Shown: positions 38,175 through 43,181 of the stretch, piece after piece
Position numbering within the stretch: the stretch's first letter is position 1
How the letters are laid out: the number at the start of each line of letters is the position of its first letter
NCBI GenBank assembly: GCA_019670725.1
Contig: AP024629.1
Span: 2,790,001 to 2,854,000, forward strand
From: Alphaproteobacteria bacterium SO-S41
GTDB taxonomy: Bacteria; Pseudomonadota; Alphaproteobacteria; Micropepsales; Micropepsaceae
Direction: 5' to 3'
DNA length: 64,000 nucleotides
Notes under the pieces: model-generated
Seen by the model: only the letters and a program-made list of their open reading frames with translations
Database searches by the model: none
What the model was told of the DNA's origin: nothing
Program-made: the position numbers and the translations under genes

Positions 38175-39068
38175 GTGACGACGCCGCGGCCGATCGCTCT
38201 CACGATGGGCGATCCGGCCGGGATCGGGCCGGAGATCGCGGCCAAGGCGATGGCGGCGCTGCAGAACCGCATTCCCCTGCGCTTCATCGCCGGACGCAGC
38301 GCGCTCGCAAGCGCCATCCCCGGCCGCCCGGAAACCACCGACGCGGCGGCCGTCATCGAGTCGATCCGCCGCGCCGTCGAGCTGGTGGAGACCGGCGAAT
38401 GCTCAGCCGTCGTCACCTGCCCCATCGCGAAGAAGACGCTGATGGATGCCGGCTTCGCCTTTCCCGGTCATACCGAATATCTCGCCCACCTGACCCAGGC
38501 GCCGCGCGCCGTGATGATGCTGGCGGTGGAAGGCCTCCGCGTCGTCCCCGTCACCGTGCACAACGCCCTCGCCAGGGTGCCGGCGCTGCTGACCGAGGAC
38601 CTCATCGTCGAGACCGGCCACATCACCGCCGCCGCCCTCACCCGCGATTTCGGCATTGCCTCGCCGCGTCTCGCGATCGCCGGCCTCAACCCGCATGCCG
38701 GCGAAGGCGGCGCGCTCGGTGGCGAGGAGGCGGCGGTGATCACCCCCGCCATCGAGCGCCTGCGCGCGGAGGGGATCGCCGTCTCCGGCCCGCATCCCGC
38801 CGACACGATGTTCCATGCCGCCGCCCGCGCGCGATACGACGCCGCGCTTTGCATGTATCACGACCAGGCGCTCATCCCGATCAAGACCATCGACTTCGAC
38901 CGCGGCGTAAACGTCACGCTCGGCCTGCCGATCATCCGCACCTCGCCGGATCACGGCACGGCCTTCGACATCGCCGGCAAGGGCATCGCGAACCCGACCA
39001 GCCTCATCGCCGCGATCGAACTCGCCGCCGCGCTCGCCGAACGCCGCGCCGCCGTTCACCCCGCATGA
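38175..39068 (+). CDS. pdxA: 4-hydroxythreonine-4-phosphate dehydrogenase
   Basis: A 297-residue enzyme of pyridoxal phosphate synthesis. The start [20 protein letters not shown] is conserved. Metal-binding histidines lie in [19 protein letters not shown] and [13 protein letters not shown]. It is about 30 residues shorter than E. coli PdxA: the region after [14 protein letters not shown] is compressed, while all catalytic segments are present. The start is GTG 38175, two bases after the surA stop. The end overlaps ksgA by 4 bases. Confidence 0.95.
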
Positions 39069-39919
39069 GCGGGCTCGACGACCTGCCGCCCCTGCGCGAG
39101 GTGATCGGCGCGCAGAACCTCATCGCGAAGAAATCGCTCGGGCAGAACTTCCTGCTCGACCTCAACCTCACCGGCCGCATCGCGCGCGAGGCCGGGCCGC
39201 TCGCCGGGCGCGACGTGCTGGAGATCGGTCCCGGCCCCGGCGGCCTCACCCGCGCGCTGCTGGCCGAAGGCGCCAACCGCGTCCTCGCCATCGAGCGCGA
39301 CGATCGCTTCCTCCCCGCCCTCGCCGACATCAACACGGCCAGCGGCAACCGCCTCATCGTCGAACCCGCCGACGCCCTCGGCGCCGACGAGCCCGCTTTG
39401 CTCGCCCGCCATGGCCTCAAGACGCCCGTCACGATCGTCGCCAACCTGCCCTACAATGTCGGCACGGCGCTGCTGGTGAAGTGGCTGACGCAGCCGGTCT
39501 GGCCCACCTGGTTCTCGTCCATGACGCTGATGTTCCAGCGCGAGGTCGCCGAGCGCATCGTCGCCGCCAACGGCACCGACTTCGGCCGCCTCTCGGTCCT
39601 CGCCCAGTGGCGCACGAAACCGCGCATGCTGTTCGACGTGAACCCCAAGGCGTTCCTGCCGCCGCCCAGCATCACCTCCACCGTGGTGCGCCTCGACGTT
39701 ACCCCCGACCCCGAACCCGCGCCGCTGAAAATGCTGGAAGCCGTCACCGCCGCCGGCTTCGGCCAGCGCCGCAAGATGCTCCGCGCCAGCCTGAAGACCC
39801 TCGGCCGCGATCCCATCCCGCTGCTCGAATCCTGCGGCATCGACCCCACCACCCGCGCCGAACAGGTCCCGGTCACGAAGTTCCTGGCCCTCGCGCGGGC
39901 GTATGCGGCCTCGCCTTGA
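39065..39919 (+). CDS. ksgA: 16S rRNA adenine-N6,N6-dimethyltransferase
   Basis: A 284-residue RsmA/Ksg[19 protein letters not shown] is the conserved start, the SAM-binding motif is [15 protein letters not shown], and the catalytic motif is NLPYN in [35 protein letters not shown] and the C-terminal helical domain complete it. It dimethylates two adenines in helix 45 of 16S rRNA, late in small-subunit assembly. The order surA-pdxA-ksgA is conserved widely. The ATG overlaps the pdxA stop. Confidence 0.96.
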
Positions 39920-39977
39920 CCTCTCCCTCCACCCCGCGCAGTTTGCGCCCGACAAAAAATCAGTAAGGGAGCCATCC

Positions 39978-41030
39978 ATGTTCTGCGAAGCCATTGTCGC
40001 CTATGGCGAGCCGCTCCAGCGCGTCGAACTGCCGACCCCCGTGCCGCAGGGCTCGGAAGTCGTCCTCGCCGTCACCGATGCCGGCGTCTGCCACAGCGAC
40101 GTGCACATTCATGACGGCCATTTCGACATGGGCGGCGGCAACAAGCTCGACGTCCGCGCCGGCCGCAAGCTGCCCTTCGCGCTCGGCCACGAGATCGGCG
40201 GCAAGGTCGTCGCCGTCGGTCCCGATGTGAAGGGTGTGAAGGTCGGCGACCGCCGCGCCGCCTATCCGTGGATCGGCTGCGGCGACTGCCCGGCCTGCAA
40301 CCGCGAGGAAGAGCAGCTCTGCAACAAGCCGCGCAATCTCGGCATCCAGGTGAATGGCGGCTACGCCACCCACGTCCTCGTGCCGGACGAGAAGTATCTC
40401 ATCGATTTCGGCAACACCGATCCCGGCCTCGCCGCCGCCTATATGTGCTCGGGCCTCACCGGCTTCGGCGCGATGAAGAAGCTCGGCCATGTCGGCAAGC
40501 AGGACCCGATCGTGATCGTCGGCCTCGGCGGCGTCGGCATGATGGGCCTGCAATTCGCCCGCGCGCTGTTCGACGCCCCGATCATCGGCGTCGATGTCGA
40601 CCAGACCAAGCTCGACGCCGCGCTGAAGGCCGGCGCCACCTCGGTCGTCAACTCGCGTGAAGAGGGCGCGCTGAAGAAGCTGCTCGCCGCGACCGGCGGC
40701 GCCTATGCCGCGGTCGACTTCGTCGGCTCGGAAGCCTCGTTCGCCTTCGCGCAGGGCAGCGTCCGCAAGGGCGGCAAGGTCATCGTCGTCGGCCTGTTCG
40801 GCGGCGCCTTCTCGATGCCCATTCCCTTGCTGCCGATGCGCGCCATCTCGATCGGCGGCTCCTATGTCGGCTCGCTGCCCGAGACCAAGGAGATGATGGA
40901 GCTGGTGAAGGCCGGCAAGATCGATCCGATCCCCGTCGTCCGCCGCAAGCTGGCCGAAGCCTCCGCGACGCTCGACGACCTCCGCGAAGGCAAGATCGTC
41001 GGCCGCGTGGTGCTCGACCCCGCGCTCTAG
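39978..41030 (+). CDS. Zinc-dependent alcohol dehydrogenase
   Basis: A 350-residue medium-chain dehydrogenase. Catalytic zinc ligands are Cys38 (AGVCHSD), His71-Glu72 (GHEIGG) and Cys157 (AAYMCSGLT). The structural zinc is held by Cys101, Cys104, Cys107 and Cys115 in GCGDCPACN and EEQLC. The NAD(P) loop is VGLGGVGMMGLQFA. It oxidises an alcohol or reduces an aldehyde; the specificity is not readable. AAGGGAG precedes the ATG. The gene ends at a strong intrinsic-terminator-like hairpin (41055-41094). Confidence 0.92.
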   Translation: MFCEAIVAYGEPLQRVELPTPVPQGSEVVLAVTDAGVCHSDVHIHDGHFDMGGGNKLDVRAGRKLPFALGHEIGGKVVAVGPDVKGVKVGDRRAAYPWIGCGDCPACNREEEQLCNKPRNLGIQVNGGYATHVLVPDEKYLIDFGNTDPGLAAAYMCSGLTGFGAMKKLGHVGKQDPIVIVGLGGVGMMGLQFARALFDAPIIGVDVDQTKLDAALKAGATSVVNSREEGALKKLLAATGGAYAAVDFVGSEASFAFAQGSVRKGGKVIVVGLFGGAFSMPIPLLPMRAISIGGSYVGSLPETKEMMELVKAGKIDPIPVVRRKLAEASATLDDLREGKIVGRVVLDPAL

Positions 41031-41054
41031 CCCGCCACACAAATGCCGAACCCG

Positions 41055-41094
41055 CGCGCGACCGTCAGGCCATGACGGTCGCGCGTTTCTTTTT
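41055..41094 (+). terminator. Strong intrinsic-terminator-like hairpin overlapping the next start codon
   Basis: A perfect 13-base stem (CGCGCGACCGTCA at 41055-41067 and TGACGGTCGCGCG at 41073-41085) closes a 5-base loop and is followed at once by TTTCTTTTT. It begins 25 bases after the alcohol dehydrogenase stop. Unusually, the start ATG of the next gene (41072-41074) lies at the loop-stem junction, and the T tract encodes part of its signal peptide. Confidence 0.85.
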
Positions 41095-41458
41095 GGCCCC
41101 GCTCCTCGCCGCCACGACGGCCGCCGCCGCGGAGCCGCAACTCCTGTGGAGCGGCCCGCTCTATTCGGAAGCCTGCACGCGCCTCGCCGATAACGGCATG
41201 ATCGAAAGCGCCGCCGGCGCGCGCTACGGCGAGATCACGGCAACGGTCGCCGGCGGCGAAGCAACCCTGGCCGCCGCCCGCACCTGCGCCTCCGCCAGCG
41301 CAGAGAGCGCAAAACTCAGTGAACTGATGAACGAGGATGGCCCGGAATGGCGGGCCTTCGAGGCAAGCTTCTCCGCCTGCCTCGCCGATTCCGGCATCGC
41401 CGCCAAGATCGGCAAGCCCGCCATCGTCAGCTACACATCGTGCGCCTGGCCCGGCTGA
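41072..41458 (+). CDS. Small secreted protein, hypothetical
   Basis: A 128-residue protein with a short signal peptide (MTVARFFLAPLLAATTAAAA). The mature part of about 108 residues has four Cys (EACTRLA, ARTCASASA, FSACLADSG, YTSCAWPG), a pattern that fits two disulfides in the periplasm. It is not recognised. The start codon lies inside a terminator-type hairpin and there is no clear Shine-Dalgarno. Either expression is held low by the structure, or transcripts begin inside it. The signal peptide makes this ATG the best start. Confidence 0.68.
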   Translation: MTVARFFLAPLLAATTAAAAEPQLLWSGPLYSEACTRLADNGMIESAAGARYGEITATVAGGEATLAAARTCASASAESAKLSELMNEDGPEWRAFEASFSACLADSGIAAKIGKPAIVSYTSCAWPG

Positions 41459-41503
41459 TCTGCAGCGCTGATTGCCGTCTCAAAAACCCGTGCTCTCTCC
41501 AAC

Positions 41504-41581
41504 TGTCATTCCCGCGAAGGCGAGAATCCATGCAGGAAACACCCTGCCTGATCATGGATGCCTGCCTTCGCAGGCATGACA
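41504..41581. repeat. Intergenic palindromic element, type A copy 3 (diverged)
   Basis: Left half 41504-41530, right half 41555-41581. The right half keeps a perfect hairpin with a compensated pair: ATGCCTGC, loop cttc, GCAGGCAT. The left half has ATTCCCGC, loop gaag, GCGAGAAT. The halves match each other less well than in the copies at 3623 and 20634. It sits between two convergent secreted-protein genes. Confidence 0.85.
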
Positions 41582-41616
41582 CATGAGAGTAATCTGGGGA
41601 GACCGCGTTCGCGCCC

Positions 41617-42345
41617 TCAGCACCCCATCGGGTCGAGCCACCAGCCCAGCAGCTTGCCGTTGGCGTCCTTCACCTCGGGCGCCTCGTAGCATTCGCCGCC
41701 GGGGTTCTCACCGGGGCCGCGCACGAAGATTTCGGCATTCGTGCCTGGCGGTTCGATGTCATCGGCCGTCGCCGGCGTGAGCGTCGCCTTGCCGCCGGCG
41801 ACGACACAGCCCTGCAGGGGATGGTCGTCGCTGCCGGACAGCATCACATAGCCGGCGTCCGGCGCCGTCGCTGCCGCGAACGAGATGGGCGGCTTGGTGG
41901 CGTCGAGTGCGAGGCAGGCGTCGATGATCGGGATCGCGGCGACGACATCCTGCCCCCACGAACGATAGGCGCAGCCTTTCAGCGACACGGCGTTCTTGCC
42001 GGTCACCGTGACCTCGATCGAATAGGGATAGTTGACCTCGCTCATGCCGTCGGAGCATGCGCCTTCCGACACCGTCACGGTCAGCGGCCCCGACGTCCAG
42101 CTATGCGCGGTCGCGCCTAGCGCCGTGGAAGATTCCGGCTTGAACTCGGTGACCTCGTCATTTTCCGGCCCCGGCGCCGTCAGCGTGATCTTCTGGCCGG
42201 TGATCTCCATGCTCCAGAACGGCTCGGTCCCCACGCCACGCAACGTGCTCTTCACCGCCTCGGCCAGCTTCGGCGCCGGCGGCCAGGGTTGCGCGGGCGC
42301 TGCGGCGGCGGCCGTGGCGGCAGTCATGACGAGAGCGAGCAGCAT
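41617..42345 (-). CDS. COG3650-like secreted protein
   Basis: A 242-residue protein with a signal peptide (MLLALVMTAATAAAAA). RGVGTEPFWSMEITGQKITL matches the GxEPFW motif of the COG3650 family of putative envelope proteins. The motif recurs in spirit: a domain with Cys in SEGACSDGMSEVNYPY, and SLKGCAYRSWG. The function is unknown. I chose ATG 42345 because AAAGGAG lies 7 bases upstream; the longer frame upstream runs through a palindrome. It is downstream of gmk on the same strand, with the type A copy 4 between. Confidence 0.78.
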   Translation of the reverse strand: MLLALVMTAATAAAAAPAQPWPPAPKLAEAVKSTLRGVGTEPFWSMEITGQKITLTAPGPENDEVTEFKPESSTALGATAHSWTSGPLTVTVSEGACSDGMSEVNYPYSIEVTVTGKNAVSLKGCAYRSWGQDVVAAIPIIDACLALDATKPPISFAAATAPDAGYVMLSGSDDHPLQGCVVAGGKATLTPATADDIEPPGTNAEIFVRGPGENPGGECYEAPEVKDANGKLLGWWLDPMGC

Positions 42346-42437
42346 AGAGAGTCTCCTTTGGCCACCATCATACCGGCCGACACCGCGTCTGAAACTGCGA
42401 CTCCTTGGCCGAATTGGGGCGTTGGGTTCCCACCATT

Positions 42438-42516
42438 TGTCATTCCCGCGCAGGCGGGAATCCACGCCGCGAGCACCGCGTTTGCGTGATGGATGCCCGC
42501 CTCCGCGGGCATGACA
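42438..42516. repeat. Intergenic palindromic element, type A copy 4
   Basis: Left half 42438-42464 has stem ATTCCCGC with GCGGGAAT (loop gcag). Right half 42490-42516 has ATGCCCGC with GCGGGCAT (loop ctcc). Both hairpins are perfect although the halves differ, so the G-to-T change on the left is matched by C-to-A within the same half. It lies between gmk and the COG3650-like gene. Confidence 0.88.
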
Positions 42517-42548
42517 GATTAGTCTCGGGAGAGAACGAAGACCGCCCC

Positions 42549-43181
42549 TCAGAACTCCGCCATCATCCCCTGGACGAAGGGCACGAGGCCCGGCTGGCGG
42601 TGGCGGCGCAGACGTTCGGCGGCGATGATCTCGCGGGCTTCCTGCAGCGCGCGCTCCAGGAAGTCGTTGACGATGATGTACTCGTACTCGCCCCAATGGC
42701 TGATCTCGTCATTCGCCTCGGCCATGCGGCGGGCGACGGTCGCCTCGTCGTCTTGAGCGCGGCGGCGCAGGCGCTCTTCCAGCGAGGCTTTCGAGGGCGG
42801 CAGGATGAAGATCGTGACGATGTCGTCCGGCATGCTGGCGCGCAGCTGCTGCGTGCCCTTCCAGTCGATGTCGAACAGCATGTCGTGGCCCTCGGCCAGC
42901 GCCGCGTCGACATAGTCGCGCGGCGTGCCGTAGGACTTCCCGAACACGCCGGCATGCTCCAGGAACCCACCTTCCGCGACCTTGTCGTCGAACGTCTTCT
43001 GGTCGACGAAGGTGTAGTCCTGCCCGTCGATCTCGCCCGGCCGCATCGGCCGCGTCGTCCACGAAACCGACAGCCGCACCTGCTCGTCGAGCCCCAGCAG
43101 GCGGCGCGTGATCGAGGTCTTCCCCGCACCCGAGGGCGAGGAAAACGCGATCAACATGGGCCGGCGCTTGATGGTCAGCAT
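42549..43181 (-). CDS. gmk: Guanylate kinase
   Basis: A 210-residue enzyme that turns GMP into GDP. The P-loop is SSPSGAGKTS (14-23). The GMP-binding region has SVSWTTRPMRPGEIDGQDY, and the lid region YGTPRDYVDAALAEGHDMLF follows with DIDWKGTQQLR. ATG 43181 is 10 bases after the yicC stop, preceded by GCGGGGA. An in-frame upstream ATG inside yicC is unlikely. The order yicC-gmk is widely conserved. Confidence 0.96.
   Translation of the reverse strand: MLTIKRRPMLIAFSSPSGAGKTSITRRLLGLDEQVRLSVSWTTRPMRPGEIDGQDYTFVDQKTFDDKVAEGGFLEHAGVFGKSYGTPRDYVDAALAEGHDMLFDIDWKGTQQLRASMPDDIVTIFILPPSKASLEERLRRRAQDDEATVARRMAEANDEISHWGEYEYIIVNDFLERALQEAREIIAAERLRRHRQPGLVPFVQGMMAEF

Follow-up and report, generated by a model that had tools for sequence, protein, structure and literature searches.

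The window, i.e. the whole stretch of 64,000 nucleotides that was analyzed, harbors a gene for a zinc-dependent alcohol dehydrogenase (adh), which is followed at short distance by a predicted terminator hairpin, a small open reading frame (ORF) and a convergent gene on the other strand. The features of this locus are:

39978-41030, plus strand: adh, zinc-dependent alcohol dehydrogenase of 350 aa (Pfam ADH_N 7.9e-24, ADH_zinc_N 1.5e-23)
41043-41075, plus strand: mini-ORF of 10 codons (MPNPRATVRP, then stop), which covers the left arm of the hairpin and whose TGA overlaps the ATG of the small ORF (ATGA)
41055-41085, plus strand: hairpin of a predicted intrinsic terminator, 13 perfect pairs, from sequence and folding
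41072-41458, plus strand: orphan ORF of 128 aa for a putative secreted protein that has four cysteines; coding-like codon use and no homologue at E <= 0.001
41086-41094, plus strand: T tract TTTCTTTTT, which is also coding (end of Arg5 and Phe6-Phe7-Leu8 of the 128-aa ORF)
41617-42345, minus strand: convergent gene for a putative secreted protein of 242 aa, no Pfam or NCBIfam family

The adh stop codon TAG is found at 41028-41030, and 24 nt separate it from the hairpin. The hairpin is composed of the left arm CGCGCGACCGTCA (41055-41067), the loop GGCCA (41068-41072) and the right arm TGACGGTCGCGCG (41073-41085), the arms being perfect over 13 bp, and the T tract (7 T of 8) follows directly 3' of the right arm. 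The start codon of the ORF, ATG at 41072-41074, is part of this structure: the loop ends with its A, and the right arm begins with its TG. No ATG, GTG or TTG occurs earlier in the ORF frame. The earlier note had described a perfect 13-base stem with a 5-base loop and a T tract behind adh, and had placed the ATG of the next gene at the junction of loop and stem; the sequence confirms both, with only the A lying in the loop.

Hairpin and T tract behind adh

The isolated hairpin folds with an energy of -28.5 kcal/mol and has 14 pairs when a G-T wobble is counted. For the 86-nt region that was folded the energy is -35.4, against -23.5 +/- 2.7 in shuffled sequences (z -4.4), and none of 200 shuffles was as good; centroid and minimum-energy folds of this region yield the same hairpin. 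Perfect stems of at least 13 pairs had 4 seeds in 30 simulated 64-kb windows, and those of at least 10 pairs had 48 seeds in 30 further ones, none of them with a T tract, which was sought on one strand. A 464-kb sample of the genome, made up of the 64-kb window and 20 stretches of 20 kb, contains 11 perfect stems of at least 8 pairs with a T tract, and the adh hairpin has the longest stem. Two perfect stems of at least 14 pairs are present in the sample among the matches listed, both without a T tract. In a permissive scan that accepted stems from 5 pairs, 1 was found versus 2.0 expected, a count that gives no separation from chance. The hairpin with its T tract is far beyond chance.

With a G+C-rich stem, a short loop and a U tract immediately behind it, the structure has the sequence of an intrinsic terminator, and its distance of 24 nt from the adh stop, which is on the same strand, also suits such a terminator. 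Among the ten other terminator-like hairpins of the 464-kb sample, five are found 21, 24, 25, 25 and 42 nt behind a same-strand stop, while the remaining five have no such stop within 300 nt, one of them being inside a predicted gene. Placement shortly behind a stop is thus not a universal rule among the 11. A role as dispersed repeat was rejected, since the genome has no other full copy of the hairpin. A bidirectional terminator that would also serve the convergent gene was rejected as well, because the minus strand has CGGGTTCGG after the hairpin and no T.

With RNA polymerase pausing at the U tract, the nascent RNA would fold into the hairpin and the adh transcript would end near 41090-41094. 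It was proposed in the earlier note that the adh transcript ends at the hairpin, and our computation supports this: both the structure and the distance from the stop, which is typical for this genome, make termination here very probable. Published data from E. coli indicate about 90% termination for a terminator 28 nt behind a stop and less than 10% for one 5 nt behind it; for a terminator in the initial 100 bp of an ORF, the loss caused by translation was only about 10% (PMC4824070). Together with the 24-nt spacing, these values suggest that most adh transcripts should terminate at this site, with or without translation of the ORF. That the first eight codons of the ORF overlap the terminator would be due to the location of both in one short spacer.

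Coding signs and distribution of the small ORF

The codon score of the ORF (0.395 per codon, or 0.393 when the ORF was left out of training) falls among the scores of predicted genes of comparable length. It is higher than that of each of the 331 ORFs of 100-160 aa which overlie predicted genes in another frame. The gene finder behind this test is crude: it selects genes with a score of this type and gave at least one neighbor (ksgA) the wrong strand. Among 20,000 simulations that used the ORF composition, 3,328 left a frame of 128 codons open. The score of the ORF was attained by none of these 3,328 frames, nor by any of 2,512 simulated with the composition of the window. The score from synonymous choice only, 0.268, lies at the median for predicted genes of 80-200 aa (n = 104), and 0 simulated frames reach it. 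In its codon use the ORF therefore resembles the genes of this genome.

The N-terminus, MTVARFFLAPLLAATTAAAAEP, has a charge, a hydrophobic stretch and an AxA site, and by eye it is read as a putative signal peptide. The codons of the T tract are CGT TTC TTT TTG, three of which are rare: in 315 predicted genes CGT accounts for 8.1% of Arg codons, TTT for 10.1% of Phe and TTG for 5.6% of Leu. The rest of the ORF avoids them, its only Phe and Leu codons being CTC (7), CTG (3) and TTC (2), so that the tail looks as if it were set by termination and not by the protein. Kinship of the ORF protein with the neighboring secreted protein was considered and rejected, as none was found.

Searches for homologues of the ORF protein returned only itself at E <= 0.001, both in 61 genomes (60 others without a match) and in 96 genomes of the order, some of which are among the 61. 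At E <= 0.1 there were hits in 24 of the 96 order genomes, including its own; the best non-self hit (E 0.0018) falls in an ORF which we take to be ATP synthase b subunit. In GTDB contigs none of 235 pattern stretches was confirmed, in a search whose single-protein query reaches close relatives only, and in viral contigs none of 26 was. Plasmids gave no match at E <= 0.01, Pfam nothing above cut-off and NCBIfam no family. A tblastn search against 129 loci gave three weak hits (E 0.006 to 0.62), which were judged unrelated. One 31-bp DNA match of 94% to another place in the same genome falls in an ORF that is presumably enoyl-CoA-hydratase-like; the match was set aside as chance. Neither homologues nor a conserved frame of the ORF were found in these collections.

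The adh gene is 82-89% identical in four relatives of the same genus, and behind it both the hairpin and the ORF are absent in all four. The earlier note had suggested checking whether relatives keep hairpin and frame together; behind adh these four keep neither, and the joint conservation that would speak for a switch was not found. The convergent gene is located behind adh in three of the four, at 50-57% identity. In the closest relative (G003) its stop overlaps the adh stop by two bases, and its matching stretch ends about 10 nt (G004, L033) or 106 nt (G002, L032) behind the adh stop. The region downstream of adh differs in G001 (L034), where there was no match to the convergent gene. An unrelated hairpin with a T6 tail lies over the adh stop of G002. 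Within 150 nt of the adh stop, 7 of 80 named adh loci have a perfect-stem terminator-like site, none with the present sequence, and one of these sites is common to two Parvibaculum loci. Within the set of genomes searched, the spacer with terminator and ORF (41031-41616) appears to be specific to this species.

The last part of the spacer, 41504-41581, is a dispersed palindromic repeat, for which the genome gives dozens of matches. It accounts for 52 of the 55 spacer matches listed, several of which are both strands of one place, and this count is a lower bound, as 40 of 234 first-look candidates were scored. A further copy is present at 42438-42522.

Start region of the ORF and competing readings

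A scan of 39000-43000, which covered sigma-70 promoters, detected no promoter-like site. The best promoter-like match upstream of the ORF (7 of 12) is background, its score being reached 794 times on the plus strand of the window. No good Shine-Dalgarno was seen at the ORF start. Folding supports the earlier proposal that any read-through RNA would have a buried start. Ranked by stability, the start region comes third among the 371 predicted starts of the sample (-35.2, against a median of -15.8). Since two predicted starts are more stable, stable structure at a predicted start is not unique to this ORF, although some of those starts may be mis-called. The most stable predicted start of the sample (-40.0) is that of L121 (9281-9643), a predicted small membrane protein whose ATG is found in a long imperfect hairpin without a T tract.

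As no promoter of its own was found, the ORF would depend entirely on the few polymerases that pass the terminator, and with a start inside a very stable hairpin and without a good Shine-Dalgarno its translation would be weak and not regulated. Read-through is presumably low, and we infer that some of the protein may be made. That the ORF is translated at all seems to us somewhat more probable than that it is silent. A strong terminator in the 5' end of a coding-looking gene would be odd if the protein matters, which would point to a promoter or start that was not seen, or to an overlap that is used.

The mini-ORF at 41043-41075 has no Shine-Dalgarno that we could see. Similar mini-ORFs occur at 15 of 97 ATGA starts of the 464-kb sample, counting the present one and two that form the ends of longer predicted genes, and the simulated chance is 14%; the mini-ORF here is probably due to chance. 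Rfam yielded one match in 40900-41600, at E 0.89 and far below the gathering score, and no family fits. The earlier idea of a built-in switch did not find support: behind adh in the four relatives neither hairpin nor frame is kept, no homologue at E <= 0.001 and no fitting Rfam family were found, and such mini-ORFs are at chance level. That the overlap acts as a switch is possible but unsupported.

A different hairpin next to adh was observed in Parvibaculum. In Parvibaculum sp. CPC32 (L044, 4161-4200) and Parvibaculum indicum (L045, 4161-4200), a Shine-Dalgarno AGGAGG and an ATG are found inside a hairpin of 12-13 pairs, identical in its letters in both loci and followed by ACTTTTT or AATTTTTT. 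The site also has a 10-codon mini-ORF with an ATGA overlap. The gene that adjoins adh there has a signal-peptide-like start and matches Pfam LTXXQ (1.7e-16 and 5e-18); we take this LTXXQ-family protein to be Spy/CpxP-like. Seven related proteins were found in 5 of 41 genomes. One (L135) has the hairpin; it is apparently the gene of L045, found a second time. For the other six no comparable hairpin was found at the candidate starts that were folded. The hairpin is present once more in G139, probably the same genome as L045. The Parvibaculum hairpin is a better candidate for hiding a start than the adh hairpin of the window.

Our preferred reading, with a probability of about 0.77, is that hairpin and T tract are an ordinary intrinsic (Rho-independent) terminator of adh, and that it is followed by an orphan ORF specific to this lineage. 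Another reading takes the ORF for no gene at all, i.e. a chance open frame or a decaying remnant in a lineage-specific spacer, where the ATG in the loop is coincidental and the hairpin serves adh only. This is consistent with the lack of any homologue at E <= 0.001 in the searches, with the absence of the ORF in the four relatives of the genus, with the missing promoter and good Shine-Dalgarno, and with the simulations in which a frame of this length stayed open. A single-sequence AlphaFold2 model of the protein was also poor (pLDDT 53.8), which is hardly informative for an orphan. However, no simulated frame reached the gene-like codon use, which extends to synonymous choice, and four cysteines behind a signal-peptide-like N-terminus fit a secreted protein; we consider this non-gene reading rather unlikely.

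A more elaborate proposal is that the hairpin ends transcription and also hides the start, and that ribosomes finishing adh restart on the mini-ORF and melt the left arm; this we hold to be very improbable. The polymerase would then pass and the ribosomes restart at ATGA, with the small protein made only under such conditions. The start codon within the hairpin, the ATGA overlap and the rank of the start region among the 371 agree with such a dual attenuator, and so does the Parvibaculum hairpin over the Shine-Dalgarno and ATG of a gene adjoining adh, although that gene is unrelated. Against it, the ATGA mini-ORFs are about as frequent as simulated and the one here lacks a Shine-Dalgarno, Rfam gave no match above chance, nothing is conserved in the relatives, and six of the seven related Parvibaculum proteins are without a comparable hairpin. 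In its fullest form, one hairpin would be adh terminator and start-codon lock in one, opened by mini-ORF ribosomes, and the U tract would have supplied the hydrophobic core of a signal peptide, with a new secreted protein arising from read-through; to this we give the lowest probability of all. It is also conceivable that the ORF has its own promoter and a leaderless mRNA from 41072, whose RNA would hold the right arm only; the hairpin could then not form, and the overlap would be confined to the DNA. Alphaproteobacteria commonly have leaderless starts, and the first 60 nt of such an RNA, which lacks the left arm, have a folding energy of only -17.2 kcal/mol. However, the place of the -10 box is taken by the G+C-rich left arm, and the sigma-70 scan, with its best relaxed match at background, offers no promoter of the type that it covers; we regard a leaderless start as quite improbable.

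Meaning and comparison with known systems

As the ordinary terminator of our preferred reading, the adh hairpin matters little. A U tract reads as Phe and Leu codons, so that an open frame behind a terminator can resemble, or become, the start of a secreted protein. This offers a possible route by which orphan genes arise, and it can lead to doubtful calls of small genes when a genome is G+C-rich.

In the open-licence literature we found no demonstrated terminator hairpin that holds the start codon of the next gene. The arsC-arsD hairpin of Bacillus ars1 lies between two genes and can be read through, and its removal raised the long transcript (PMC4562236). There both genes form one operon in several Bacillus strains, whereas the second ORF here is an orphan. 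Naville and Gautheret (2010, PMC2965389) listed 15,930 predicted attenuators, of which 1,004 overlap annotated short hypothetical ORFs, and they proposed bifunctional terminators that hide a ribosome binding site; in the words of that paper, none had been demonstrated by 2010. The likeness to their terminators is a 5' terminator that overlaps a short hypothetical ORF. Unlike those premature 5' terminators (PMC2965389), the present one comes immediately after another gene, and neither a sensing part nor a conserved target gene was found for it. Terminators overlapping short hypothetical ORFs are already reported (PMC2965389), and the case described here joins them, without evidence of regulation.

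The adh hairpin shares with the intrinsic terminators found behind genes a G+C-rich perfect stem, a short loop, a U tract and a position about 25 nt after the stop. The difference is that here another ORF has its first codons in the right arm and the U tract, and among the 11 terminator-like hairpins of the sample the adh hairpin is the only one with a predicted start codon inside.
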